From Planococcus versutus (GTDB lineage: Bacteria; Bacillota; Bacilli; Bacillales_A; Planococcaceae), in contig NZ_CP016540.2 of the NCBI RefSeq assembly GCF_001186155.3, forward strand, positions 2,582,001-2,646,000: a DNA stretch of 64,000 bases, read 5' to 3'. Positions 30,915-44,200 of this stretch are shown here, in pieces (positions within the stretch are counted from its first letter, which is position 1; every line of letters begins with the position of its first letter). The notes under the pieces are model-generated. The model worked only from the letters and a program-made list of their open reading frames with translations. It searched no databases and was not told the origin of the DNA. The position numbers were made by a program, and so were the translations under genes.

Positions 30915-30947
30915 AAAACCAGCAAACTCTAAAGAGGTTGCTGGTTT
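30915..30947 (-). terminator. Distal copy of the NlpC/P60 gene terminator hairpin (left flank of the element)
   Basis: AACCAGCAAACTCT / AGGTTGCTGGTTT hairpin with loop AAAG, almost identical to the hairpin at 31507-31541 and in the same orientation. On the minus strand it is followed by TTTTTG, the usual U-tract. One stem mismatch. Confidence 0.75.
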
Positions 30948-31506
30948 CAGCTCGTAGACAAAGTCTTATTAAACTGAATAGTGACGTATAACCTCCAACT
31001 GGGCTGGCCACTTCGCTTTCCAGTGGGCTCAGCTTCAGCCTCCTCGTCACTGACGTTCCTGCGGGGTCTTCAGCTTTCGCTGTCCCACAGGAGTCTTCGT
31101 GGACCAGCCCAGTTGGAGGGTTCCAGCTTCAATCAAAGTGAGACTATTTAGTCCATTTCACAATAAAAATACATGATCAAGCCTTTTCATCTACTCACTT
31201 AAGGATTCGGAGCACCAAGTGGTGAAGGGCAAAGATATGCTCCTGCATCGCTGCGCTAGCTTCGTCGCAAAGCCACTGCCCAAATTTCCTTCGGTCACTG
31301 ACTTTCCTGCGGAAAAACGAAGGGATGAGACCCCGCAGGAGCTTGCGACGAGGAGGCTCAGCGCGGAGTCCTTGGCAGCTGGCACCGCGACGTCCTATCG
31401 CGCCAGTTGCATGACCCACATCCTGTGGGCCCAAAGCGTCCGCTTGGTGTGGAGAATCATAGATGCATACAAAAAAAACGAATAATCATTCTTTTGTCTA
31501 CAGTCT
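30948..31506. mobile_element. Short non-coding element 1, inserted within a terminator, with a nested second insertion
   Basis: Ends are GTAGACAAAGTCTTATT on the left and the inverted TTTTGTCTAC on the right. Inside is a 124-bp GC-rich block (30994-31117) bounded by a perfect 13-bp inverted repeat (TCCAACTGGGCTG / CAGCCCAGTTGGA), then AT-rich text including AATACATGATCAAGCC. The same order is found in the element at 43621-43897. This copy is longer because another repeat (about 31211-31495) sits between GGATTC and TTTTGTCTAC. No transposase is encoded, so if it moves it needs help in trans. Confidence 0.65.
31211..31495. repeat. Nested repeat inserted inside element 1
   Basis: Absent from the sister element, where GGATTC runs straight into TTTTGTCTAC. 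It has inverted ends CACCAAGTGG (31213-) and CCGCTTGGTG (-31449). Its GC-rich core (CTGCGGAAAAACGAAGG, GACCCCGCAGGAGC, GACGAGGAGGCTCAGCG) is of the widespread Bacillales type. ATTC is present on both sides and may be a 4-bp target duplication. Frames crossing it have no ribosome site. Confidence 0.6.
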
Positions 31507-31541
31507 AAAACCAGCAACCTCTAAAGAGTTTGCTGGTTTTT
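31507..31541 (-). terminator. Proximal copy of the NlpC/P60 gene terminator hairpin (right flank of the element)
   Basis: AAAACCAGCAACCTCT / AGAGTTTGCTGGTTTTT hairpin 8 bp past the stop of the SLH-NlpC/P60 gene. One stem mismatch, at the same base-pair position as in the left copy but in the other arm. Confidence 0.8.
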
Positions 31542-31548
31542 GTGTACG

Positions 31549-32562
31549 TTATTTTGCAAGTGCTCTGTGTACGAATGCTGTGTACTCTGCTCGTTTGGCA
31601 TTAGCGTTTGGTTGGAATGAGCCGTCTTTATGGCCAGTTGCTAGTTCGTGAGCGGCGATTGTGTTGATTGAACTTTCAGCCCAGTGGCCGCTAATGTCTG
31701 TGAACGATGATGACGGTTTTGCAGCTGACAATGCAAATGCGTTCGTCAGCAGTTTGCTGATTTCAGCGCGTGTGATGCTCTCGTTTGGCGCAAATCGGTC
31801 AGCTGAACGTCCTTGCACAATTCCCGCTTTTTGAACAGCGTTAATGTTGCCAGCTGCCCAGTGCGAAGCGGGAACATCTGTAAATGCTGAGCTTTTTACT
31901 TTTTCTAATTTTAATGCACGTGCAATGATGGTTGCCGCTTCTGCACGTGAAACATTAGAATTTGGCTCAAAAAGGCCATTGCCTTTTCCTGTGATGATTT
32001 CTGTAACGGTTAAGTCTTTGATTTCATCGGCTGCCCAAAATCCTTTTGGTACATCGTGGTACTGACCTACCGAAAGATTTGGTTTCGAGACGGGTTTTGC
32101 TTGTTCGCTTATTCCGTCTAGACGACGCGCGCCTGTGTATTTAGGTCCCCAATATGGGTTGGTGTTCAAATTGGCGATTGTAACTCCTCCGCTTGTTGCT
32201 GAAAGGAAATTACCATCTCCTATGTATATTCCTGAATGTGAAATTCCGCGTTTGTATGTGTTTGAAAAGAAAACCAAGTCGCCTTCTTTCAGGTTACTTT
32301 TGCTGACGCTCGTACCAATTTGGTATTGTTGCGCAGAGGTACGTGGAATTGCAATATCAAATTCATCGTACACATAGCGTAAGTATCCTGAACAATCAAA
32401 TCCTGACGGTGTTGTTCCGCCGAATTTATAAGGCGTTCCTAAAAATTTCTTAGCGTATGTTGTTAACTCGTTTGGTGTCGCTGCACTCGCTGAGTTGGCA
32501 TTGAATGGACTAATTGATAGCACTAAGACCGCAATTATCATAAGTAGTAGACGTTTTTTCAC
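31549..32562 (-). CDS. SLH-anchored NlpC/P60 peptidoglycan endopeptidase
   Basis: Cysteine peptidase that cuts peptidoglycan stem peptides. Start taken as the GTG at 32562 (AGAGG 6 nt upstream, giving a lysine-rich signal peptide MKKRLLLMI). The open frame runs 14 codons further up with no support. Signal peptide to about 28, NlpC/P60 domain 30-150 with Cys57 (SGFDCSGYL), His109 (ISHSGIYIG) and the usual third position in NPYWGP, then three SLH repeats (VSRAEAATIIARAL, ITRAEISKLLTNAF, AKRAEYTAFVHRAL) to the end. Fifth or later SLH enzyme of the island. Its terminator carries the element insertion described separately. Confidence 0.93.
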   Translation of the reverse strand: MKKRLLLMIIAVLVLSISPFNANSASAATPNELTTYAKKFLGTPYKFGGTTPSGFDCSGYLRYVYDEFDIAIPRTSAQQYQIGTSVSKSNLKEGDLVFFSNTYKRGISHSGIYIGDGNFLSATSGGVTIANLNTNPYWGPKYTGARRLDGISEQAKPVSKPNLSVGQYHDVPKGFWAADEIKDLTVTEIITGKGNGLFEPNSNVSRAEAATIIARALKLEKVKSSAFTDVPASHWAAGNINAVQKAGIVQGRSADRFAPNESITRAEISKLLTNAFALSAAKPSSSFTDISGHWAESSINTIAAHELATGHKDGSFQPNANAKRAEYTAFVHRALAK

Positions 32563-32775
32563 TCGGCACCTCTTCGTTTGAATTTCGGGATGGTGATCAC
32601 TCATCGACCGTTAGTTGTTTCTTTAATATAATTTTGATTGTAACAGTAAAAACATACTTTAAACGTTACATTTGTGTTACAAGTGTGTAACAAAGACTAT
32701 TCTACTGTTTAATTTTAGGAGAAAAACATATATAAGTACTTATATTTAAGAAAGATAATAAGGAAATAAAAACCA

Positions 32776-32811
32776 AAAAAGACCATTTTGCAAAAAGCAA
32801 AATGGTCTTTC
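32776..32811 (-). terminator. Terminator of the alanine/glycine symporter gene
   Basis: A 14-bp stem (AAGACCATTTTGC with complement) around AAAAA, followed on the minus strand by T-rich sequence. It starts about 11 bp after the stop codon. Confidence 0.88.
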
Positions 32812-32821
32812 GATTCCTTTA

Positions 32822-34237
32822 TTAGTGACGATTTTCGTTTTCGCCCCAGCATTCTGTGTTTTTCAGGCCAGGTATGTTTTTTGCGAAAAACTCAGGATTT
32901 TTTCCAGCTTTGCGCTGGCTTGTGTAGTCATCAAGCACTTTGAAAGCCGTTTTGCCGAGCAAAGCAATAACCACTAAGTTGAGTACGGCCATGGTGCCCA
33001 TAAACAAATCTGCCATGTTCCAAACGAGTTGAACTTGTGCTAATGCACCAAACATAACCATTCCAAGTACTCCAAAACGATAAGCTGTTAACCAAGCGCT
33101 GTGCGCGTTGATAAATTCAATGTTTGTTTCACCGTAATAGTAGTTTCCAATAATTGAACTAAATGCGAAGAACAAGATGGCGATTGCCAAAAAGTAAGGC
33201 GCCCAGCTGCCAAGATGAACATCTAATGAAGCTTGTGTCAGTAAAATTCCAACTTTTTCACTTGTTGAATACAAACCAGCCAAGATAATGATAAAAGCAG
33301 TTGCTGAACAAATGACGATCGTATCGAAGAAAACGCCTAAACTTTGTACTAAGCCTTGTTTAGCAGGATGCGAAACGTTGGCCGATGCTGCTGCGTTTGG
33401 CACAGAACCCATACCAGCTTCGTTTGAGAACAATCCACGACGAACTCCTTGCATAATCGCAGCACCAATTCCGCCGCCGATTGCTTCTTCTAAGCCAAAG
33501 GCACTTTTCACAATCAGCATGAAAACTGCAGGAATTTCAGTGAAGTTCATAATGACAATGTACAATGCCACAATGATGTAGATCGTTGCCATAATCGGTA
33601 CAACGATTTGTGTCACGCTAGCAATTCGTTTAACGCCTCCAAAAATAACAATTGCAGTTAAGACGACAAGTCCTAAACCAACAGACCAATCTGGAATATT
33701 GAAGACATCTTCAAACGATTGCGCAATTGTATTTGATTGAACCGAGTTAAAAATAAAACCAAAGGCTAATGTTAAAAGAACAGCGAAGACGATTCCTAGT
33801 TTGCGATTTCCTAAAGCTTTTTCCATGTAGTAAGCAGGGCCTCCGCGGAATTGTTCGCCGTCACGAACTTTGTAAACTTGCGCTAACGTACTTTCAACAA
33901 AAGCGGTCGCCATTCCGATAATCGCAACCATCCACATCCAGAAAACCGCTCCAGGTCCACCGATGGCAATTGCCAAAGCAACCCCGGTAATGTTCCCCGT
34001 ACCGACGCGTGATGCTGTTGAAATCGTAAAGGCTTGGAAAGCTGAAATTCCGCTATCACCATCCTTTTTTTCTGTGATGACACGAAACATCTCACCAAAC
34101 AGACGAACTTGAACGAATCGCGTGCGAATCGTAAAATAAAGGCCAAGGCCCATAAGAAGTGCAATTAGTATGTATGTCCATAATAACGTATTGATGTTAT
34201 CCACGAACCACGTGATTCCGTCTATAAAAGCATCCAT
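32822..34237 (-). CDS. Alanine/glycine:cation symporter (AGCS family)
   Basis: Sodium- or proton-driven uptake of alanine or glycine. The 471-aa protein has about 11 membrane helices. It carries the family signatures FQAFTISTASRVGTGNITGV (about 66-85), FVESTLAQVYK with FRGGPAYYMEKALG after it, and GLFSNEAGMGSVPNAAA (about 267-283). ATG start with GGGGGAAAG upstream. It closely resembles B. subtilis AlsT/YrbD/GlnT members, and the exact amino acid is not readable from sequence. Confidence 0.92.
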   Translation of the reverse strand: MDAFIDGITWFVDNINTLLWTYILIALLMGLGLYFTIRTRFVQVRLFGEMFRVITEKKDGDSGISAFQAFTISTASRVGTGNITGVALAIAIGGPGAVFWMWMVAIIGMATAFVESTLAQVYKVRDGEQFRGGPAYYMEKALGNRKLGIVFAVLLTLAFGFIFNSVQSNTIAQSFEDVFNIPDWSVGLGLVVLTAIVIFGGVKRIASVTQIVVPIMATIYIIVALYIVIMNFTEIPAVFMLIVKSAFGLEEAIGGGIGAAIMQGVRRGLFSNEAGMGSVPNAAASANVSHPAKQGLVQSLGVFFDTIVICSATAFIIILAGLYSTSEKVGILLTQASLDVHLGSWAPYFLAIAILFFAFSSIIGNYYYGETNIEFINAHSAWLTAYRFGVLGMVMFGALAQVQLVWNMADLFMGTMAVLNLVVIALLGKTAFKVLDDYTSQRKAGKNPEFFAKNIPGLKNTECWGENENRH

Positions 34238-34315
34238 TCGCTTTCCCCCATTTCATAAACTTAACTTTGTGTCTATACCCCATTTGCAGTAACAGAAAAC
34301 GTTGATCGAACTCAA

Positions 34316-34351
34316 ATAGAAAAATGAGACCCTCTAGTAAAAGAGGATCTC
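34316..34351 (-). terminator. Terminator of the M20 amidohydrolase gene
   Basis: GAGATCCTCT / AGAGGGTCTC stem with one mismatch and loop TTTACT. It is followed on the minus strand by CATTTTTC and lies about 90 bp after the stop. Confidence 0.65.
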
Positions 34352-34436
34352 GGATGTCGGCATTATTATTTTATCACGTGTTTTTCTTATAGAAGAATTT
34401 TTAGTGTTTTAAAGTTATTTCCCGGGAAATGTTGCA

Positions 34437-35528
34437 TCATGTTGCTTTTAATATATTGGCCAACACTCGTGCTCCTATATCAAGCGCATCATGATTAAAG
34501 TCCATATCGGGGTGATGTAGCCCCGGCGACAAGTCTGCGCCAATGCCAATCATAGCAGCATGCAATTCTGGTTTTTTGATTGTGTAAAAATGAAAATCGT
34601 CCGCACCGGTTGTATGAACGGGCGCTGCCGTTGCCGCGTCTCCCAGTGTTTTGCGAATCGCTGCATCGGCAATTTGCATCGCTGTTTCTGAAACTTCTGC
34701 AGCAGGCGTGTAATCAGTCCATTCAAACGTAATGTCAACATCGTGTAAAGAGGCTATCGCTCCTAAGCCGTCGCCGATTTTCTGCTGAAGCTCTTTCATG
34801 AGTTCATTTGATTGAGAACGCACATCCATCGAGAAGTGTGCACTTCCGGGAATGATGTTCAAACTATCGCCACCCGTTTGGATATGTGTGAGTTTTGCCG
34901 AATACGACTCAAATGGTGAAAAGTAAATCGATTTCATGAATTGATGGATAGCGGCGATTACATCAATTGCGTTTTTCCCTTGATGTGGACGCGCTCCGTG
35001 TGCGTCCACTCCTGTAATTTTTCCTCTTAAAAAAATTCCCGACCCGTGATGGAGTGCTGGTGTTACTTGCCCAAACGGCAATTCTTCGATTGGACGTAAA
35101 TGAACACCGTATAAATGCGACACTCCATCCATCGCGCCGCGCGCTATCATCGATAACGAACCATTGCCCAATTCTTCTGCTGGCTGAAAAATAAAACGTA
35201 CACGTTTTGTCAGTGGTTCGTCTTTTAAATACAACAACGCACCGAGTACCATAGCCATGTTGGCATCATGTCCGCACGAATGATTGGCCTGCAATATACC
35301 ATCGACTTCTTGCCAAAGCGCATCCATATCCGCACGCACCGCAACCACTTCGTCTCCTTGTCCAATTTCGGCAATCACTCCGGTAACGTCCGAAAAGGTA
35401 TGATGCTTAACGCCAAGATCCGTCATAATCGCGGCTAGTTTTTTAGTGGTCTCGGTTTCTTTCCAACTCACTTCTGGATGTGTATGAAAATGATTAAAAT
35501 ACGCCAGCGTTTGTTGCTTGATGTTCAT
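34437..35528 (-). CDS. M20 family amidohydrolase/peptidase (hippurate hydrolase-like)
   Basis: Metal-dependent amidohydrolase acting on N-acyl amino acids or small peptides in the cytoplasm. Start taken at the ATG of MNIKQQ (35528), with AAAGGAGAGG upstream; the frame runs 17 codons further up. Residues show HPEVSWKE near 18, VRADMDALWQ, the metal motif HSCGHDANMAM, the EELGNGS proton shuttle and a late GADDFHFY. Length (363 aa) is usual for the IAA-amino-acid hydrolase group. It is a single-gene unit and substrate is unknown. Confidence 0.88.
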   Translation of the reverse strand: MNIKQQTLAYFNHFHTHPEVSWKETETTKKLAAIMTDLGVKHHTFSDVTGVIAEIGQGDEVVAVRADMDALWQEVDGILQANHSCGHDANMAMVLGALLYLKDEPLTKRVRFIFQPAEELGNGSLSMIARGAMDGVSHLYGVHLRPIEELPFGQVTPALHHGSGIFLRGKITGVDAHGARPHQGKNAIDVIAAIHQFMKSIYFSPFESYSAKLTHIQTGGDSLNIIPGSAHFSMDVRSQSNELMKELQQKIGDGLGAIASLHDVDITFEWTDYTPAAEVSETAMQIADAAIRKTLGDAATAAPVHTTGADDFHFYTIKKPELHAAMIGIGADLSPGLHHPDMDFNHDALDIGARVLANILKAT

Positions 35529-35617
35529 GTGACCCTCTCCTTTTGTATTAGGATTCCCGTTGATAGTTTGATTGTACACGAGCGGAGTTGAGAGTTAAAT
35601 GGGTGTGGTGTGGATGG

Positions 35618-35645
35618 TTACCCGGGTGTTCGCACTTTATACTAG
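35618..35645. repeat. Short segment shared, inverted, with 4910-4937
   Basis: GGTTACCCGGGTGTTCGCACTTTATAC here corresponds to the reverse complement of GTATAAAAAGCGAACACCCGGGTATAACC near 4911. The shared core is GCGAACACCCGGGTA. No function assigned. Confidence 0.45.
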
Positions 35646-35675
35646 CGAAATTACCAGTTATACATAAAGGTGAGT

Positions 35676-36632
35676 TTATTTGTGGAGTGGGTGGTAGATG
35701 TATTTACGATATTTGCGTCCGCCTACGGGTTGGCAGTGGTTATTGAGTAGAAAGCGTTTAGCTGTGTCTAGACTTTTGAGTCCGATGAAATCGCGGCATT
35801 CCACTGTGTTGATAGCGGGTTTTATTAGCATAAACCAATCGTGTAGCGCTTCGATGTGGGCATTTCTACTGACGAGTCTGCATGTCTCGCATTCCCATGC
35901 AACCTGAGTTCTATGCATTTTGCCAAATTGGCAACGTGGGCAAAAGACGCCTGTTTCAATTTCAGTTTGCTGAATTTGAAATTTAGGAGCGAGTGGAAAT
36001 GGTTGGTAGTCTTGATGTGCTGCGAGGAATTTTTCGCTTAGCTGGTTGAGTTCTTCTATAGACAGAATCGACTTTGGCAGGTTTAATTCGGTTAAATAAA
36101 AATTTACTTCGCTCGCTGCTAAAATGCGCGAGTTTGGTGGCGTGTCTTCAACAGTTTGGGAAGGATGCGCAATGACTATGATGCTGAAAATTGGTAAATG
36201 AGAACCTATTTTTTCCAGAAATTTACACATTCGCATCGTTGTTTCGTTCATTTGCGTGATAGGGCTTTTATAGCTCCGAATTTCTCCATCCGCCAATGTG
36301 GAATAAAGCGCGCTCGGGTTTTGCTTGAATTGTAGCTTGCCGGTAATGTTTTTGACTTCTAGCAAAAAAATAGCGCTTTGTGTAATCAAAACGGTATCCA
36401 CTTGGATTTTGAATGGCTCGGGCAAGGAAAAATCTTGGATGATTTGATGAGCATACGGCGGATCGAAAAAAAAGAGCGCTTCATCTAACCGTTCTTCTCC
36501 ACTGAAACCTGCTCTCGCATTATTGAGACTATTTTTAACAGCCGCTCGTTTCGGATGAGTAGGTGACAATCTTTTCAATAAAGCTTCGTACCCCGCAATT
36601 TTCACTGGTTTTCCTCTGTATTTAATGATCAT
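35676..36632 (-). CDS. NERD domain protein with C-terminal zinc ribbon
   Basis: Nuclease-related domain protein of unknown role. The NERD segment (about 45-170) contains GFSGEERLDEAL, the strand with a conserved Asp in QVDTVLITQSAIFLLEVKN, and a Gln-containing SPITQMNETTMRM. These match the restriction-endonuclease-like fold core. The C-terminal part holds a four-cysteine ribbon (CPRCQFGKM then CETCR) and a short helical tail. Perfect AAAGGAGG 6-8 nt before the ATG. Relatives are common in Bacillales as single genes; DNA cleavage has not been shown for most. Confidence 0.85.
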   Translation of the reverse strand: MIIKYRGKPVKIAGYEALLKRLSPTHPKRAAVKNSLNNARAGFSGEERLDEALFFFDPPYAHQIIQDFSLPEPFKIQVDTVLITQSAIFLLEVKNITGKLQFKQNPSALYSTLADGEIRSYKSPITQMNETTMRMCKFLEKIGSHLPIFSIIVIAHPSQTVEDTPPNSRILAASEVNFYLTELNLPKSILSIEELNQLSEKFLAAHQDYQPFPLAPKFQIQQTEIETGVFCPRCQFGKMHRTQVAWECETCRLVSRNAHIEALHDWFMLIKPAINTVECRDFIGLKSLDTAKRFLLNNHCQPVGGRKYRKYIYHPLHK

Positions 36633-36829
36633 AAGTTTCCTCCTTTTTAACTAGCTTAGCAGGTCTTTTAACCGCTTGCCATTTATATCCAAATTTGATT
36701 TTTGATTGGCCTATGAGGGTCGTATATGAGATTTGGTGGATAAGGAGGTCTCATTTCTATATAAGCTTTTCGCAGGCGAAAAGTTTATCTTCTTTGCCTA
36801 ATTTTCTACAAGTATTCTGTGTACGCATC
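36633..36829. other. Gene-free gap with a small hairpin
   Basis: AAGCTTTTCG CAGG CGAAAAG (about 36768-36785) forms a hairpin closely like the one at 4855-4874 (GCTTTTCG TAAG CGAAAAGC). Nothing else is visible. Confidence 0.45.
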
Positions 36830-36854
36830 AAAAAAAAGCCGCCTTAATGGCGAC
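36830..36854 (-). terminator. Terminator of the rocB-like gene, with the stop codon in the loop
   Basis: Stem GTCGCC / GGCGGC (36849-36854 / 36838-36843) encloses ATTAA, which contains the TAA stop of the gene. Eight T follow on the minus strand. The stem's 5' arm is therefore coding sequence. Confidence 0.85.
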
Positions 36855-38457
36855 TTTTTATGGGTATAGATAGGATCATGTCTTCTAAAAGCATGGGCAT
36901 TTCTTCAAATGTGTTTTTGATGTGCAAGCGCTCTGTTCGTCTGTGTGCGTCTTTGCCGTAAGGGCCGACATTTAGAACAGGAGCGGTTAGTTGTTTCATT
37001 GCTTGGAACGGGATACTGTATGGATCGCCATATACGGGTGTATTGTTTTCGTAGGCGATCCAGCCGTCATTTTGGTCGTTGTAACTGACGTAGCTTAAGT
37101 CTGAGATGCCGTTGAAGAAATGGCTTTGTTTGACATCAAGGTCAAATTTTTCTTTTGCGTTTTTTGTGACTTGTTCAACGCACCGTTTAACTAGTTCGTT
37201 TTCGGTCGAGTTTACAGATGGGTAATATGGCGGCGCGAACATCAGTACTATCGCAGGCGTTAGCTCTTGGCAGTTGATCAGCAAGATGTCTGTGACGTGC
37301 ATCGATTTTTCACGGATGTCTAAATCTGGAAGTGCTAACGTGTCATGCAGCAAATCGGTAATGTAGTCATGGCCGAATTTAGTGCGTGCGTATTCCATAA
37401 GTTCTTCGTAGCGTAACACCTTTATGCCGCCGACAGGTTCAATATTTTCGCGTTCACACATAGCAAAGTAGTCGCGTTCGCAATGCGCTGCCGCTTCTTT
37501 TGCGACCGTTTCGAAAATCTCAAACACTTCTTCTGCAGTTCGTTTCATAGTAAAGACATTGTACATTGCTGACGTGCGGTACGGCGTTTGTGCTGAGTAT
37601 TCTAATTTCATATCACGTTGCGTGAGAGTTACCGGCAGCGGCGTGGATTCTCCGTAAACCACTTCTTTAAAGCTCGTATTCCATTCCATACGATGGGTTA
37701 AGTAAGTTGAGATATAACTTGATGTAATGCCTGATAGCGGTTCGCCCACATGCGTTTCTTTGCCATAAAATAAAGCAGACGGCATGATTTTGCCGATAGA
37801 TCCGGTGTATACATAATGTGCAGTATCTCCGGGTTTGCTCGCGAAGACAGGCTCTCCGTTTAAGAACAATATAAATTCTAAGTTGTGCTCGCGTTCGATA
37901 TCGAGCAGTCGCGATACACCATAACGCATACCTGCAGAGTTTACTTCTTCGTCTGGTACGGTCATCAATAGTAAGTTGATGTTCCACTTTTCGATCGACG
38001 CTTTCTCGATTAATGCCATGTGCAGTGCGAGTCCTGCTTTCATGTCCATTGTTCCGCGACCAAAAAGATATTCTCCTGAGTCAAGGTCTCGCAATGTATC
38101 TTCATCTAACTCTTCACGAATTTGTTTAAAAGCTTCACCAAGCAATTCTGGATTGCCTGCTAATGGTTCCAAATCGCCGTATTCGCCCGTATGAACGGTA
38201 TCGAAATGGCTAATTAACACAATCGTATCGACTGCCTCTGGATGTTTGTAAAGAGCCGTCACATTTTGGCGTCCCCAGTTGACTTCTCCCATTCCAATAT
38301 AATCTGGATGTTCTTGAAAATAAGGCAGTTCCATTAATTTATCTTTTAACTTATACGCAAACTCCACTTCTCCATCAGTTAAAGTTAAGCTTTTCCAACT
38401 GACAAGTTCACATAATAATGCTTGTAATTTTTCTGGTGTTCCCCATAATGCGGTCAC
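36844..38457 (-). CDS. RocB-like M20 family peptidase
   Basis: Metallohydrolase resembling RocB, a protein of the arginine utilisation regulon whose exact reaction is uncertain. The 537-aa protein is longer than ordinary M20 enzymes and has SHFDTVHTGEYGDL, then FGRGTMDMKAGLALHM (about 137-152) and TVPDEEVNSAGMRYG, the metal and catalytic positions. The C-terminal part is longer than usual, with FFNGISDLSYVSYNDQ. GTG start with GGGAG 9 nt upstream. No other roc genes are adjacent here. Confidence 0.83.
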   Translation of the reverse strand: MTALWGTPEKLQALLCELVSWKSLTLTDGEVEFAYKLKDKLMELPYFQEHPDYIGMGEVNWGRQNVTALYKHPEAVDTIVLISHFDTVHTGEYGDLEPLAGNPELLGEAFKQIREELDEDTLRDLDSGEYLFGRGTMDMKAGLALHMALIEKASIEKWNINLLLMTVPDEEVNSAGMRYGVSRLLDIEREHNLEFILFLNGEPVFASKPGDTAHYVYTGSIGKIMPSALFYGKETHVGEPLSGITSSYISTYLTHRMEWNTSFKEVVYGESTPLPVTLTQRDMKLEYSAQTPYRTSAMYNVFTMKRTAEEVFEIFETVAKEAAAHCERDYFAMCERENIEPVGGIKVLRYEELMEYARTKFGHDYITDLLHDTLALPDLDIREKSMHVTDILLINCQELTPAIVLMFAPPYYPSVNSTENELVKRCVEQVTKNAKEKFDLDVKQSHFFNGISDLSYVSYNDQNDGWIAYENNTPVYGDPYSIPFQAMKQLTAPVLNVGPYGKDAHRRTERLHIKNTFEEMPMLLEDMILSIPIKSRH

Positions 38458-38550
38458 GGCTCTACACTCCCTAATTATTCTTTACTTTTCTTCATTATAA
38501 TGAATTTTTTGTTAAATAAAAAGAAGATGACTCTAAAATATTTTTGCAAC

Positions 38551-38580
38551 AAAAAACGACTCATGAAAAAAGCCGTTTTT
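38551..38580 (-). terminator. Terminator overlapping the end of the EamA transporter gene
   Basis: AAAAAACGGC / G(T)CGTTTTTT hairpin around TTTTTTCATGA, which contains the stop codon. A T-run follows on the minus strand. Confidence 0.65.
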
Positions 38581-39475
38581 TACGTTTTTTCATTAAATCT
38601 TCAGCAGCCCCTGATCCAAATAGCACACCAATAACGATGAGCACCAATCCATAAATATGGCCAGAGGTAATTTTTTCATTTAAAATCACACTAGCGCCAA
38701 CTAATGAAAATAATGTATTCAAGTTCATAAAAATTGCAGCTTTTGTTGGGCCAGCTTGCCCTATCGAATAATTGTAAAGCATATGACCGACTGCGGTTCC
38801 GAGCATTGCAGAAAAGAAAAAAGCGACCCAAAAAGATGTGGGTGCATCAGCAAAAGCTGCAATTTCACCCGGTTCTTGTAGCAGCGAAATGACAAACAAC
38901 ACGACCGAGCCGATGATAAACATATAACCTGTTAGTAAGCGTGGATCCAAGGTACGGGCGGCATTGGCGATAACAATATAACTTAGCACTTGCGCCAAAA
39001 TCGACAAGAATACGTAAACGTCTCCAATGTTCAAACCCGTTGATGCTCCACTGCCCACCATAACCGTAGCGGCCACACCCGCAAATCCAACAACAACTCC
39101 AAACCATTGAAGCTTAGATGGGTAATTGCGCATAATTAATGACACCAGCACCGCCGTTAACATCGGTCCTGTCCCGAGAATCAATCCAGCATTTGAGCCG
39201 GTTGTTACGGCTAAGCCATTTGACAAGAAATAATGATGTCCTACGACATTGAGTAGCGAGCCAAGAAAAATAAATTTCCATTCTTTTTTAGCTGGCCACC
39301 GCAACAGTTTGAACCTTGTGAGAATTGCCATCACAGACAAGCCTGCCAAAAAAATACGAAATGCGGTTAAAGTGACAGGATCGACAAATGACAACATGTA
39401 TTTAACCGCGGACAAGTTAAAGCCCCAGACAATCATCACAGCCGTTAAAATGCCATAAATTTTCCATTGATTCAA
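38561..39475 (-). CDS. DMT superfamily transporter (EamA domain protein)
   Basis: Ten-helix metabolite exporter of the drug/metabolite transporter group, with two EamA repeats (about 8-140 and 152-290). Helices include AVMIVWGFNLSAVKY and GPTKAAIFMNLNTLFSLVGA, both typical. The TTG at 39475 lies 9 nt behind GAAGG and is preferred to the TTG two codons earlier. Substrate unknown. It sits upstream of the rocB-like gene in the same direction with a gap of about 100 bp, so co-transcription is possible but unproven. Confidence 0.86.
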   Translation of the reverse strand: MNQWKIYGILTAVMIVWGFNLSAVKYMLSFVDPVTLTAFRIFLAGLSVMAILTRFKLLRWPAKKEWKFIFLGSLLNVVGHHYFLSNGLAVTTGSNAGLILGTGPMLTAVLVSLIMRNYPSKLQWFGVVVGFAGVAATVMVGSGASTGLNIGDVYVFLSILAQVLSYIVIANAARTLDPRLLTGYMFIIGSVVLFVISLLQEPGEIAAFADAPTSFWVAFFFSAMLGTAVGHMLYNYSIGQAGPTKAAIFMNLNTLFSLVGASVILNEKITSGHIYGLVLIVIGVLFGSGAAEDLMKKRKKRLFS

Positions 39476-39538
39476 ATCCAAAGACCTTCTTTCGCCTTTC
39501 TGTAGAAAAGCCCTTATTTTTGATTTTTTTGGAACAGT

Positions 39539-41002
39539 TTACTTAGGTGTTTGGATAGTGTATTGATATGCTTTTCGATCGATCAATAAACTGAAAGCGA
39601 TAAAAGCAGCAAGCGATAATAACACGGGTACTGTAACGGTATGAACACCGAACAAATTACCGTTTGCCAGGTTGTAAAAATGCAAAGCGATATAGCTACT
39701 AATTCCTGTCATCATCGATGCAATGGCGCCGTATTTATTGCCCCATTTCCAATACAACCCCAGCACAATCGGCCAAATAAAGGCCGCTTCCAACCCACCA
39801 AACGCAAACAAATTCAAGAAAATGAGCAGTTCAGGTGGATTTAATGCGAGCAAAAAGACAATTATGCCGAGTACGCCCGTCACACCAAACGAAATGCGTT
39901 TAATGGTTTTAAGTGTGGCATCTGGTTTTACATAATTCAAATACACGTCTTTCACAATCGATGAACTAACTAGTAATAACAACGAATCGACGGTCGACAT
40001 AATCGCAGCCATTGGCGCGGCGAGGACGATTCCAGCGACCCACGGCGGCAAAGTTTCAAGCGCAATTAGCGGAATGACTTTATCCCCAATTTCAATGCCT
40101 GGCATAACAGGACGTGCAAAAACGCCGATCAAATGCATATTCAGCATGATAAAACCAGTTACAAACGTGCCAATAATTAACGCCCTGTGCATGGCACGCG
40201 AATTTTTATAAGACATAGCACGTACTGCAATTTGTGGCAAGCCAACAACGCCAACGCCGACTAAAATCCAAAAAGAAGAAACGTAAGCAGCGGTTAAATC
40301 ACCGTTTGCACCATATGGCGTGACTAAATTTGGGTTTTCAGCAATCAAATCATTGACGATGTTTGGAATGCCCCCTCCTGCAACAATGACCGCAATCAGT
40401 AACACAAGTGTACCGATAAGCATGACGGCTCCTTGTACAGCATCGGTCAAGGCAACGGCACGAAACCCACCAATCGTCACATACACAAGCACACTAACAG
40501 CAAATAAAAACAACGCTGAATTATAAGATAATCCTGTCAGTGATTCCACAAGACGCGCACCGCCAATCCATTGTGCGGCCATTGCGGAAAATAAGAAAAC
40601 AATAATGCTAAAAGCTGACAGCAAGACAACGAAAGTGCTATTGTAACGAGCTTTCAAAAAATCAATCATGGTAATTGCTTTATAGCGCCGTGCCATAATG
40701 GCGTATTTTTTACCAAGAATCATTAACACAAAATAACCTGTAACCACTTGTGCCATGGCAAGCAACACCCAACCAAACCCTAACGTATAGGCGGTTCCAG
40801 GACCTCCAAGAAAACTTGACGCACTGCCGTAAGTCGCAACCATCGTCATAGCGAGTACAAAGCCACCTAGTTCACGGCCACCTAAAAAATAATCGCTAAT
40901 AAAATTGGAAGAACTCGCTAATTTACGGCTTGACCAATAACCGATAAAAAAGATGATCAGTAAAAACACGAGCATGGGTACTAATACGGCGTAATTCATC
41001 AT
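39539..41002 (-). CDS. panF: Sodium/pantothenate symporter PanF
   Basis: Sodium-coupled uptake of pantothenate for coenzyme A. The 487-aa protein has about 13 helices of the sodium:solute symporter family. It opens with LVFLLIIFFIGYWSSRKLA and carries SDYFLGGRELGGFVLAMTM, ATYGSASSFLGGPG and MAAIMSTVDSLLLLVSS signatures of PanF. Identification is strengthened by the upstream YhdT-family gene, with which panF is usually paired. The two overlap by four bases (ATGA). Confidence 0.9.
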   Translation of the reverse strand: MMNYAVLVPMLVFLLIIFFIGYWSSRKLASSSNFISDYFLGGRELGGFVLAMTMVATYGSASSFLGGPGTAYTLGFGWVLLAMAQVVTGYFVLMILGKKYAIMARRYKAITMIDFLKARYNSTFVVLLSAFSIIVFLFSAMAAQWIGGARLVESLTGLSYNSALFLFAVSVLVYVTIGGFRAVALTDAVQGAVMLIGTLVLLIAVIVAGGGIPNIVNDLIAENPNLVTPYGANGDLTAAYVSSFWILVGVGVVGLPQIAVRAMSYKNSRAMHRALIIGTFVTGFIMLNMHLIGVFARPVMPGIEIGDKVIPLIALETLPPWVAGIVLAAPMAAIMSTVDSLLLLVSSSIVKDVYLNYVKPDATLKTIKRISFGVTGVLGIIVFLLALNPPELLIFLNLFAFGGLEAAFIWPIVLGLYWKWGNKYGAIASMMTGISSYIALHFYNLANGNLFGVHTVTVPVLLSLAAFIAFSLLIDRKAYQYTIQTPK

Positions 41003-41265
41003 TCCTCCTCCTCTTCATCAAACGGGACTTCGACAAAGAAGAATTTAACGACAATGACAACCAATACCGAAATTAATAGGAATCCTACCACACAGCTATA
41101 AAAAAACCAATCCGGCAAGCCGAAAACGTAACGGTACTCTTCAACAGGACGTGAGCCTAAGCCGTAAGCAAAGCCAAACCACCACAAAAAATTGAACAAG
41201 GCTAAGCCAAGCCCAATCCATGCTTCTCGGTGCGCTATTTTAAAACGCCAATCCAATTCCTCCAT
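40999..41265 (-). CDS. YhdT family small membrane protein (DUF997)
   Basis: Small two-helix membrane protein (88 aa) found next to panF in many bacteria and presumed to assist the symporter. Start chosen at the ATG of MEELDW (41265) with GGAG 8 nt upstream; the frame extends 20 codons further without a ribosome site. Helices are about 16-35 and 52-75, with a family-typical WFGFAYGLGSRP loop between. The tail is acidic (EVPFDEEEEE). Translationally coupled to panF. Confidence 0.88.
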   Translation of the reverse strand: MEELDWRFKIAHREAWIGLGLALFNFLWWFGFAYGLGSRPVEEYRYVFGLPDWFFYSCVVGFLLISVLVVIVVKFFFVEVPFDEEEEE

Positions 41266-41381
41266 CACATACACTCCGATCGTTGTCTTTTTATGGCTAT
41301 TTCTCGCGTTGTTCTTTTTCTTCATCTATCGTACACCATTGACGAGTTTTGATTAACCCCTACGTGTGCTTTTTAAGCAGG

Positions 41382-41413
41382 TAAAAACCCGAAAGCTTAA
41401 ACTTCCGGGTTTG
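41382..41413 (-). terminator. Terminator of the HlyD-like adaptor gene
   Basis: AAACCCGGAAGTTT / CTTTCGGGTTT stem, followed by TTTTTACC on the minus strand, 4 bp after the stop codon. Confidence 0.85.
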
Positions 41414-41417
41414 AGTT

Positions 41418-42716
41418 TTAACGAGCTAGTAAATATTCTACATATGCACGCCAATAGGTATTTTTCGCTTCTTCGAAATCTGGTTGGCGGCTCGGGAAAG
41501 GCATAAACACTTTCGGTGGCACAACAAATTTCTCCAGTTTTTCTTCGTGGATTATAACCGTTCCAACTTCAGGAGCTTCAGATAATACCGCTTTTGTGCC
41601 ATCTTCAAAATTGGTCGTCACTGACACTGTTTTGGGTCGTCCGTTTATATGTAACGAATGCGCTTTGCCGGTAACACCGTCATAATCAAAAAGCCAAGAA
41701 ATCGGCAAGGCTACTGCATCACTAGCTGACTTTAACGTAATGGCGGTGTTGACATTGGCGCCATAAGGCAATGGATTTTCGATCGGTGCATCAGCGACGA
41801 TGCGTATTTCATAATACGCCAACGGATTGTTTTGTTGTTTTGGATCTAATTGATGATAAGCTTCTAGCCATTTCGATTCTTCGGCAGGCATTTCAGAAAT
41901 ACGTTGAACCGTTCCTGTGACGATGCCATCGATGCCTTCACCTTGAATTTGAACAGGATCTGTCACTTGTACCGATGGCCACTCGTCTTCTAATACATAA
42001 CTCAAAAACACTTTTTCTGTTGAATAAATTTCGATGCTTAATGGTTCTGTATCACGATTGATTTTCGAAACTGTTCCATCAACGGGACTAATTACCGAAG
42101 GACTTGATAAATTTTGTGCAAGCTGCGCATTTAAAACCGCTAATTGTGAGTCTAGTGCAGCTAATTGTTGCTCAGCTTGCGCAATTCCTGCAGCGTATGA
42201 ACCGTCTTGTGGTACTGCAACACCCACAGAAACGTTAACATCAAATTTTATAACTTCGTCTTCTTCATTGGTGATTTCGGAATTATTGGATGCATCTCGT
42301 GACACCGCACCCCCTTGTGCAGCTTTTGCTTGTTCCAATGTTGCAAGTGAAGCTTTCACTTCGGTGCGTTGACTTTCTAATGCTATTTTTTGGGTTTCCC
42401 ATACAGCTCGTTGGTCCTCTGTTTCCGCTTCATTTAAAATGGCCAACTCAGATCCAGCAGTAACCGCGTCTCCTTCGTTAACTGTCCATTGCTGCAATGC
42501 TTCGTTGTCTTGAATATAAATTTCGACCGTATCTTCAGGGACCGTTAAGGCTTCTTTAAACAAATTGGTCGTGTAAGCATGCGCATATGTTTGTTCATAA
42601 TCATCGACGTAAACGCTTTTTGGCAAAATGCTTTTCTCACCGAACAGTAATAACGCATTGGCAGTCAAAAAAGCGACAATCGCTACGGATAACCCAACAA
42701 AATAGAATTTATTCAA
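41418..42716 (-). CDS. HlyD-like efflux adaptor (membrane fusion protein), no transporter partner nearby
   Basis: Secreted adaptor-like protein with one N-terminal anchor helix (about 5-26). After it comes a biotinyl/lipoyl-like half motif (QWTVNEGDAVTAGSELAIL, about 77-95), a coiled-coil hairpin (100-200, rich in Gln/Ala/Glu), the second lipoyl half (SPSVISPVDGTVSKI, about 210-225) and beta-barrel text. This is the order of membrane fusion proteins. In Gram-positives such adaptors normally pair with a MacB-type ABC transporter, which I do not see here. It overlaps the preceding membrane-protein gene by eight bases, so the two form an operon. Confidence 0.78.
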   Translation of the reverse strand: MNKFYFVGLSVAIVAFLTANALLLFGEKSILPKSVYVDDYEQTYAHAYTTNLFKEALTVPEDTVEIYIQDNEALQQWTVNEGDAVTAGSELAILNEAETEDQRAVWETQKIALESQRTEVKASLATLEQAKAAQGGAVSRDASNNSEITNEEDEVIKFDVNVSVGVAVPQDGSYAAGIAQAEQQLAALDSQLAVLNAQLAQNLSSPSVISPVDGTVSKINRDTEPLSIEIYSTEKVFLSYVLEDEWPSVQVTDPVQIQGEGIDGIVTGTVQRISEMPAEESKWLEAYHQLDPKQQNNPLAYYEIRIVADAPIENPLPYGANVNTAITLKSASDAVALPISWLFDYDGVTGKAHSLHINGRPKTVSVTTNFEDGTKAVLSEAPEVGTVIIHEEKLEKFVVPPKVFMPFPSRQPDFEEAKNTYWRAYVEYLLAR

Positions 42717-43401
42717 AGGGATTCCCGCCTTCCATAAAACCGCCTAGTATATCGTCCACTGGGATTAAACTAACTGACGCAACAATCAAGGCCGACACTA
42801 TGTGAAGAATGATCAAACCAAACAAAATCAGTGCCGGATTTATCTTCGTAAAGCTCCGAATAAATCGGTATTGCACCGCAATGATTAGCGACGTAAACAA
42901 CGTTAGCTGATTAAAAAAATAAATCAAAAACGAATGGTCCAAAAACGTATAAGCAATCGGACCGAACGAGAAAATAGAGACCGACATCGTATAGCCAGTC
43001 ACTGCAAACAACAGACTAATCAATCCCTTTTCAATGATCAGTAAAGCCGTCACATAAATTTGCATAATGAGCGCTGCACGCCACGGCAACCGTAAGAGTT
43101 TGCTGTACAAAAATGCTGTTCCGTAAACATGAAAAGCTACATAAAAACCACCCCATAGAAGCGTTCCCATAAGTGATGTCCAACGCGCGACTGTATATGC
43201 ATCCCACATACCTGCTGCGAGAAGAGGTGTCAGTGATTCTGTATTCATGCCCCAAACTTCACTAACGGCAAAAACCAAAAGACCCATTAGAAAAATCCAA
43301 GCAATGCGTTTACTAACGTTCCGCATTTCGGTTGTTTGTATATTATGTATAAGCTGCCCTTGTCTCGGGAAAAAGTGCCAAAATCTAAAGTCTGATATCA
43401 T
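42709..43401 (-). CDS. Polytopic membrane protein, possibly YIP1-like, paired with the HlyD-like adaptor
   Basis: Unknown function. Start chosen at ATG 43401 (MISDFRFWHFF) with AAAGGA 9 nt upstream. A short cytoplasmic N-terminus precedes five or six hydrophobic helices between about residue 35 and 220. Layout resembles YIP1-domain proteins, but I cannot name diagnostic residues, so this is tentative. The 8-bp overlap with the adaptor gene implies joint expression and perhaps a joint complex. Confidence 0.65.
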   Translation of the reverse strand: MISDFRFWHFFPRQGQLIHNIQTTEMRNVSKRIAWIFLMGLLVFAVSEVWGMNTESLTPLLAAGMWDAYTVARWTSLMGTLLWGGFYVAFHVYGTAFLYSKLLRLPWRAALIMQIYVTALLIIEKGLISLLFAVTGYTMSVSIFSFGPIAYTFLDHSFLIYFFNQLTLFTSLIIAVQYRFIRSFTKINPALILFGLIILHIVSALIVASVSLIPVDDILGGFMEGGNPFE

Positions 43402-43419
43402 GCGTATGATTCCTTTCAA

Positions 43420-43597
43420 GGCAATTGACGTTCTGCTTCACTTTACTTTACCAAAAAAGCGCTCTCTTTGAAACGTATTCGCTGACACATTTTACAATAT
43501 ATGAGCTGTTTGAGTCAAAAGACATAGAAATACGGTCGAATGGCGTGGGTTTGTTTGCGACTTGCCCAGTGTTTGCTTGGCTTACTCCAAAACAAAA
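43420..43597. other. Gap between the membrane-protein gene and the element-bearing terminator
   Basis: About 180 bp with no supported frame. It must contain the promoter of the membrane-protein/adaptor operon, but no clear -10/-35 pair was found. Confidence 0.4.
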
Positions 43598-43620
43598 AGG
43601 CTGTTCACAAGGAACAGCCT
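43598..43620 (-). terminator. Distal copy of the DUF2187 gene terminator hairpin (left flank of element 2)
   Basis: AGGCTGTTC ACAAG GAACAGCCT, identical over 23 bp to 43898-43920 and in the same orientation. On the minus strand this copy alone is followed by a T-tract (TTTTTGTTTT). Confidence 0.85.
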
Positions 43621-43897
43621 CAGACTGTAGACAAAGTCTTATTAAACTGAATAGTGATGTATAATCTCCAACTGGGCTGACCACTCCGCTTTCCGGTGGG
43701 CTCAGCTTCAGCCTCCTCGTCACTGACGTTCCTGCGGGGTCTTCAGCTTTCGCTGTCCCACAGGAGTCTTCGTGGACCAGCCCAGTTGGAGGGTTCCAGC
43801 TCTAATCAAAGTGAGATTATTTAGTACATTTCACAATAAAAATACATGATCAAGCCTTTTCATCTACTCACTTAAGGATTCTTTTGTCTACAAGCCG
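43621..43897. mobile_element. Short non-coding element 2 (277 bp), inserted within a terminator
   Basis: Begins CAGACTGTAGACAAAGTC and ends TTTTGTCTACAAGCCG, giving inverted ends TGTAGACAAA. The central 124-bp block (43667-43790) with 13-bp perfect inverted repeats differs from that of element 1 at few positions. Flanked by two 23-bp identical terminator hairpins exactly 300 bp apart. No coding capacity. Confidence 0.7.
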
Positions 43898-43927
43898 AGG
43901 CTGTTCACAAGGAACAGCCTTTTTTTC
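43898..43927 (-). terminator. Proximal copy of the DUF2187 gene terminator hairpin (right flank of element 2)
   Basis: Same 23-bp palindrome, 9 bp past the stop codon. On the minus strand it has an A-tract before it but runs into CGGCTTG of the element instead of a T-tract, so alone it should terminate poorly. Confidence 0.75.
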
Positions 43928-43935
43928 TAGTTAGT

Positions 43936-44163
43936 TTATGATTCAATAATACGGTATTTCTTATGTGAAATTACGGTCATGTTAGATGCCGCACCAATTT
44001 CTTTTGCGTCTTCTGGTGAGATTTCTACAATCACTGAGTTGTCCATAATCTTGAAAATCGTTCCATTAACATCCACATCGTTACGAGTGAAAGATATCCA
44101 TTCACCGATGTAGCGCGCCGCTACGAATTCTGATACTTCTTTTTCATGGGGTTGGAAAGCCAT
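43936..44163 (-). CDS. DUF2187 (YkvS-like) family protein
   Basis: Small soluble protein, 75 aa from the ATG at 44163 (MAFQPHEKEV). It is beta-rich, with VAARYIGEWISFTRNDVDVNG split by a turn and ending VISHKKYRIIE. The layout matches DUF2187, a small SH3-like family of Bacillales with no known function. The frame runs three codons further up, but that GTG overlaps the ribosome site. An extended -10 promoter lies about 40 bp upstream, so it is a single-gene unit. Confidence 0.8.
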   Translation of the reverse strand: MAFQPHEKEVSEFVAARYIGEWISFTRNDVDVNGTIFKIMDNSVIVEISPEDAKEIGAASNMTVISHKKYRIIES

Positions 44164-44200
44164 CAATACCACGCCTCTCTTTTTAAAACGCTATCTGTCT

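Follow-up and report, generated by a model that had tools for sequence, protein, structure and literature searches.

A stretch of 64,000 nucleotides from Planococcus versutus (contig NZ_CP016540.2, positions 2,582,001 to 2,646,000; here called the window) raises the question of how two related elements, at 30.9 kb and 43.6 kb, each came to be bracketed by two direct copies of a hairpin whose sequence is unrelated at the two sites. An earlier note on this DNA, made from the letters alone, had described both elements with inverted ends and duplicated hairpins, had assigned the hairpins to the target because they differ between the sites, and had proposed a non-autonomous element that recognizes terminator hairpins and makes a long, structured duplication. 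The elements, their inverted ends and the bracketing hairpins were all confirmed in the sequence. Judging by the flanks collected below, the target is a hairpin, at most sites accompanied by an A- or T-tract like that of an intrinsic terminator, and after insertion the entire stem-loop flanks the element on either side as a direct repeat. As our overall best explanation we propose, with good confidence, that these are miniature inverted-repeat transposable elements (MITEs) mobilized in trans, that their insertion is targeted to hairpins, and that the whole stem-loop is duplicated by way of its 5′ feet.

The two hairpin copies are identical in 30 of 32 bp at the 30.9-kb site and are perfect 23-bp repeats at the 43.6-kb site (Table 1). 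A consensus terminator scan places the terminator of the left copy at 43.6 kb on the minus strand and that of the right copy on the plus strand. Thus, the T-tract serving the neighbouring minus-strand open reading frame (ORF) is missing from the copy beside this ORF and retained in the far copy, which matches the split of A-tract and T-tract described in the earlier note. The same scan flagged neither hairpin copy at 30.9 kb. The two elements are 96% identical over 255 bp, the 43.6-kb element being a shorter form of the 30.9-kb one; the shared part is larger than the 124-bp core first described. The inverted ends, present at both elements, also proved longer than first described, as the ends proper take in 5-nt tips outside TGTAGACAA. 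Neither element has a transposase gene: the longest ORF overlapping the 30.9-kb element encodes 88 amino acids (aa), and the 277 bp of the other are too short to encode one.

Table 1. Elements, terminal inverted repeats and hairpin copies at the two sites (positions counted from the first nucleotide of the window)
Feature	Position	Strand	Remarks
Left direct copy of target hairpin, site 1	30916..30947		32 bp; from repeat and fold
Non-autonomous element, site 1 (30.9 kb)	30948..31507	+	560 bp including 5-nt tips; tip CAGCT left, TAGAC right (read inward)
Left terminal inverted repeat, 30.9-kb element	30953..30961	+	CGTAGACAA
Right terminal inverted repeat, 30.9-kb element	31494..31502	-	TTGTCTACA on the plus strand
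Right direct copy of target hairpin, site 1	31508..31539		just past minus-strand ORF 31549-32604, whose 3′ end is at 31549
Left direct copy of target hairpin, site 2	43598..43620	-	23 bp; minus-strand T-tract kept
Non-autonomous element, site 2 (43.6 kb)	43621..43897	+	277 bp including 5-nt tips; tip CAGAC left, CGGCT right (read inward)
Left terminal inverted repeat, 43.6-kb element	43626..43634	+	TGTAGACAA
Right terminal inverted repeat, 43.6-kb element	43884..43892	-	TTGTCTACA on the plus strand
Right direct copy of target hairpin, site 2	43898..43920	+	adjoins minus-strand ORF 43936-44172 (78 aa) at its 3′ end; plus-strand T-tract kept

We then investigated the ends of related copies across the genus. 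The end motif AGRCTGTAGACAAAR is present in 21 of 46 genus genomes, and a reversed-motif control gave a single match overall; most, not all, of the motif places were retrieved for analysis. Selection by this motif alone yielded 140 distinct ends with flanks long enough to score, and 116 of them abut the foot of a hairpin no more than 2 nt from the tip (hairpin score of at least 7). The same score was reached by only 3 of 140 stretches lying 100 nt further out and by 2 of 140 shuffles. At a score of at least 9, the numbers were 90 ends, no outer stretches and no shuffles (of 140 each). Copies without flanking hairpins are therefore not the rule, and the inference of a terminator-hairpin-recognizing, non-autonomous element with a long duplication is supported.

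When all end-like words were paired, 196 pairs resulted, and the flank repeat scores among them show a gap at 12 and 13, where no pair falls. The set selected at a score of at least 14 comprised 93 rows after doubles were removed and 91 after two alternative right ends were dropped; some of these 91 copies may be a single insertion seen in two species. A duplication running tip to tip was found in 88 of the 91 (16-41 bp, median 27). Over the outer 7 positions of these repeats, 510 of 616 positions pair in the dyad-symmetric register, against at most 299 of 616 when the register is slid by 1 to 5 bases. Taken as a set, the repeat boundaries are thus symmetric about the dyad of the hairpin, and, over these repeats and those of the autonomous elements below, repeat length (16-42 bp) varies with the hairpin. 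Between the tip and the first G or C there are 0-4 A/T bases on either side in 82 of the 88 MITE copies, and in 60 of the 61 autonomous copies described below, with 6-11 in the rest. There are 86 different hairpin sequences among the 88 copies, which bears out the claim that the hairpin belongs to the site and is at odds with one hairpin sequence carried to every copy. The two hairpin copies are identical in 28 of 88 cases, indicating that most of these insertions are not fresh. When the left flank of one copy was set against the right flank of another, none of 2966 combinations attained the score reached by all 149 true pairs; since the true pairs were themselves picked by that score, this control addresses chance and not frequency. 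A chance origin of the flank repeats is excluded.

In the genome of P. versutus itself, the search gave 23 matches, some being pieces of one copy. Eight copies, namely the two in the window and L002, L004, L005, L006, L007 and L010, each have their own duplicated hairpin, the repeat of L010 being interrupted. Seven others (L008, L009, L011-L014 and L041) are, by eye, truncated or have a hairpin at just one end.

The ends of the window elements match those of autonomous insertion sequences (ISs), the form CAGAC-TGTAGACAA being common to both. An IS1182 model search of 101 genomes of the bacterial family found a match in 75, and among these are ISs with transposases of approximately 450-460 aa that have the same ends and the same hairpin habit as the MITEs. 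Two transposases of this duplicating clade score 481.2 and 466.1 bits against the NCBIfam IS1182 model (cut-off 270), and the domains above the Pfam cut-off are DDE_Tnp_1_6, DUF772 and DDE_Tnp_1. Duplication of the hairpin was seen by eye in L045 and L047 and was found in 11 of the 17 rows of groups G046a (with L044 of G010), G049 and G096; among the six remaining rows, some have unlike hairpins at their two ends and others have one end not resolved. From public genomes, a scan retained 80 loci that encode relatives of the transposase, one of them from an unclassified metagenome-assembled genome, with hosts in Sporosarcina, Lysinibacillus, Ureibacillus, Cytobacillus, Peribacillus, Mesobacillus and others. 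At 61 of the 80 loci the hairpin is duplicated (19-42 bp, median 26); pairing reaches 393 of 427 positions in the dyad register, against at most 159 of 427 when slid. The two copies are identical at 58 of these 61 loci, and all 61 hairpins are different. The hairpin is duplicated in four of six plasmid records, namely one from Peribacillus, one from Sutcliffiella and two of ISEfa7, the last two being the same site. These comparisons support the assignment of the window elements as MITEs, that is, non-autonomous relatives of one IS1182-family clade.

Relatives lacking the element were expected by the earlier note to have a single hairpin, and this held at every site that could be judged. At the 43.6-kb site, a single hairpin without an element is seen in the stretch viewed for six of seven relatives inspected by eye; the seventh was viewed on the wrong side and falls outside the judged set. 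At the 30.9-kb site, four of eight relatives show one hairpin in the same place (by eye), the other four having been viewed on the wrong side and not judged. For the copy L102, a single hairpin is present in all five relatives examined, both of whose flanks match. The three relatives examined for L147 also have one hairpin, as located by the left flank only (79-94% identity); the right flank was not found in them, indicating that this site has also been rearranged. In both hairpin copies of L147 (1126-1156 and 1494-1524), the loop is the reverse complement of the loop in the element-free close relatives L404 and L405.

Other IS1182 elements of the same bacterial family behave differently. Those with ends GAGGGCACTGAAAAA have plain repeats of 8-9 bp in six of eight rows (L297-L302), the ends of L060 and L063 being not resolved. 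No consistent repeat is seen in the 24 rows of elements whose ends resemble AAGGGGCTGTCC or GAGGCTGGGACA: 22 score at most 9, L283 scores 11 with an imperfect repeat, and L279 scores 15 over a stretch that includes its own end. Replacement of a hairpin was checked in this no-repeat group at one site with four relatives, of which one was informative: L435 (80-86% identity) has one hairpin at the position of the IS, an IS remnant sits in the nearest relative, L434, and two relatives were not resolved. The single hairpin in L435 fits the IS1272-type replacement of Wan et al. In a tree of the transposases, the duplicating group (27 rows) falls into one clade with 99/98 support, apart from the 8-9 bp and no-repeat rows. 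The tree rows are labelled by group, and the rows L043, L046 and L049 are themselves without visible duplication. The autonomous IS1182-family partner, the dyad symmetry across the set and the different behaviour of the other clades are supported additions to the earlier note.

In the mechanism that we propose, the IS1182-family transposase of the duplicating clade would move the MITEs in trans. At the moment of attack, the target hairpin would take the form of an extruded cruciform or of a stem-loop presented in some other way, and each of the two 3′ ends of the element would be joined to one of the two 5′ feet. Joining points 16-42 bp apart in the duplex are hard to reconcile with one fixed synaptic complex, though at a four-way junction the two 5′ feet would be neighbours. 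As they would lie close together there at any stem length, joining and fill-in would yield a stem-loop on both sides; gap repair would copy through both hairpins, so that attack on the 5′ feet would duplicate the entire stem-loop. IS1272-like clades may attack the 3′ feet instead, so that the hairpin is lost. Both the symmetry of the register and the shortness of the A/T foot agree with the 5′-feet route; the cruciform step is inferred. It seems that the shape of the target DNA, and not a fixed ruler, determines the size of the duplicated piece. We lean, by a little, towards the broader proposal that this clade of DDE transposases sets its duplication by DNA structure and not by a fixed ruler, duplication and deletion being a switch at the same four-way junction.

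Other routes to the same flanks have to be weighed. Terminators fold readily in single strands, and the hairpin might be recognized on single-stranded DNA, on the lagging strand or in an R-loop, with the duplication arising during replication. The outcome seen in the sequence leaves the substrate unfixed, and we regard this route as a serious, if rather unlikely, alternative, because dyad-symmetric boundaries across the set are simplest if both strands are attacked and because copies with a lopsided tract show no clear preference of orientation relative to the terminator tract (11/7/7/7 for the MITEs; 16 vs 11 for the ISs). Much less probable, in our judgment, is an insertion that is not directed by structure at all, occurring widely with a variable long stagger and surviving only in terminators. 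Intergenic terminators are indeed permissive sites, and an A- or T-tract is found at most sites (76 of 88 MITE copies and 53 of 61 IS copies). However, selection leaves the dyad-symmetric ends of the repeats unexplained, as it does the 8-9 bp or inconsistent repeats of the other IS1182 clades in the same bacterial family.

The presence of hairpins on both sides of most copies could also mean that they are part of the element, as long ends, or that they are the product of recombination between repeated terminators. This explanation is already contradicted, and we give it next to no weight: 86 different hairpins in 88 MITE copies and 61 in 61 IS copies do not suit an element-owned sequence, and element-free relatives have one hairpin at the site.

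Several observations weigh against hairpin-directed duplication by an IS1182-family partner. Among the motif-selected ends, 24 of 140 have no clear hairpin, several of them resembling decayed hairpins by eye. Nineteen of the 80 transposase loci lack a strong repeat, comprising 7 with ends missed by the scan and 12 weak ones; some of the latter have, by eye, a different hairpin at each end, an outcome that recombination between copies would give. Two of the six plasmid records (Exiguobacterium and the third ISEfa7 record) have no duplicated hairpin. A search of the P. versutus genome gave no match to the transposase of the duplicating clade, and thus no intact transposase; its only IS1182 trace is a 40-bit fragment on another contig, without matching ends. 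The sole close match in the genus is a partial copy in genome G137 (63% identity, 221 residues). The empty hairpins at the 30.9-kb site occupy the same place as those of the window and differ from them in stem sequence, and the tree program warns of long branches meeting. Better survival of those insertions that fall in terminators could also contribute to the pattern. Finally, the evidence comes from sequence comparison: no transposition was observed, and no cruciform in the cell was shown.

Some further features of the elements and their hairpins were seen. The 5-nt tips of the MITE set are usually CAGAC on one end and CAGCT or GAGCT on the other. Tip type is mostly linked to the polarity of the element, and a strict link was rejected, as a minority of copies, such as the 30.9-kb element, L002 and L005 (these three by eye), have their tips exchanged with respect to the interior; this is most simply explained by an old inversion of the element interior. 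The extra part of the longer element (about 31200-31450) resembles a repeat matched in many genus genomes, including genomes without a match to the end motif. With DNA parameters, the strand of the 43.6-kb element folds far better than its shuffles do (z -4.55), and its core holds a long, imperfect stem. No Rfam family scored above its gathering score anywhere in the window. The hairpin copies at 30.9 kb differ at one base-pair position, at which each copy is mismatched; the two outer arms pair perfectly together, and the inner arms likewise, as if the arms had been swapped by inversion. A general exchange of arms was considered and rejected: the pattern occurs in 2 others of 60 differing pairs and the opposite in 4, and no general mechanism is therefore claimed. 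In two ISs (L046, 1248-1291; L048, 3028-3070), a second, inverted copy of the terminal repeat lies by eye close behind the first, within the IS end. It forms a hairpin with its foot near the tip, followed in L046 by a T-run, so that these IS ends resemble the target.

Target duplications are the textbook mark of a fixed stagger. The duplicating clade is a concrete and testable case of structure-directed transposition, in which duplications of 16 to 42 bp track the target hairpin, and related elements in many bacteria duplicate well over a hundred different hairpins. If our explanation is correct, each insertion splits and doubles a terminator, and such elements would reshape the 3′ ends of genes. 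The contrast between IS1182 clades (one duplicating hairpins, one with ordinary 8-9 bp repeats and one seemingly replacing the hairpin at one site) makes a natural comparison, useful to locate the part of the transposase that sets the outcome.

Whole-hairpin duplication as an observed outcome was not found in our searches of the open-access literature, and ISfinder or subscription papers may record such cases. IS1182-related transposases have been described as acting with or without target duplication and as possibly recognizing DNA structure (PMC12056078). The direct repeats given by ISfinder for the IS1182 family span 2 to 60 bp, termed extreme variability (PMC7335449), and the passage that lists them offers no reason for the spread; hairpin length could be the source of the long ones, and its tracking by the duplication is a possible account of the 2-60 bp range. 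The pneumococcal SPRITE, a short repeat described as enriched near the 3′ ends of genes (PMC3049150), also lies near terminators. As described there, however, SPRITE is itself terminator-like, whereas here the terminator belongs to the host site.

One named relative that we compared is ISEfa7 (IS1182 family, Enterococcus faecium). Its transposase is 55% identical to the query of the duplicating clade, its ends are CAGACTGTAGACAAAG, and the hairpin is duplicated in two of the three records inspected, both of them the same plasmid site; unlike the window MITEs, it is an autonomous IS. Hairpin targeting by the IS1182 family is already known from IS1272 and TnSha1, which are described as targeting inverted repeats, often terminators, without a primary-sequence consensus, and as deleting or replacing all or part of the hairpin so that no duplication is left (PMC5678879, PMC4923244). 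Replacement of this kind does not describe the window elements or the surveyed copies, at which both hairpin copies are present. Whole-hairpin duplication figures in Wan et al. 2017 as a hypothetical pathway b (their Fig. 13, PMC5678879), beside the replacement pathway of IS1272, and corresponds to the 5′-feet route proposed here. Thus, as far as these descriptions go, IS1272 and TnSha1 have the transposase family and the hairpin target in common with the duplicating clade, but their hairpin is lost, whereas the duplicating clade keeps and doubles the whole hairpin.

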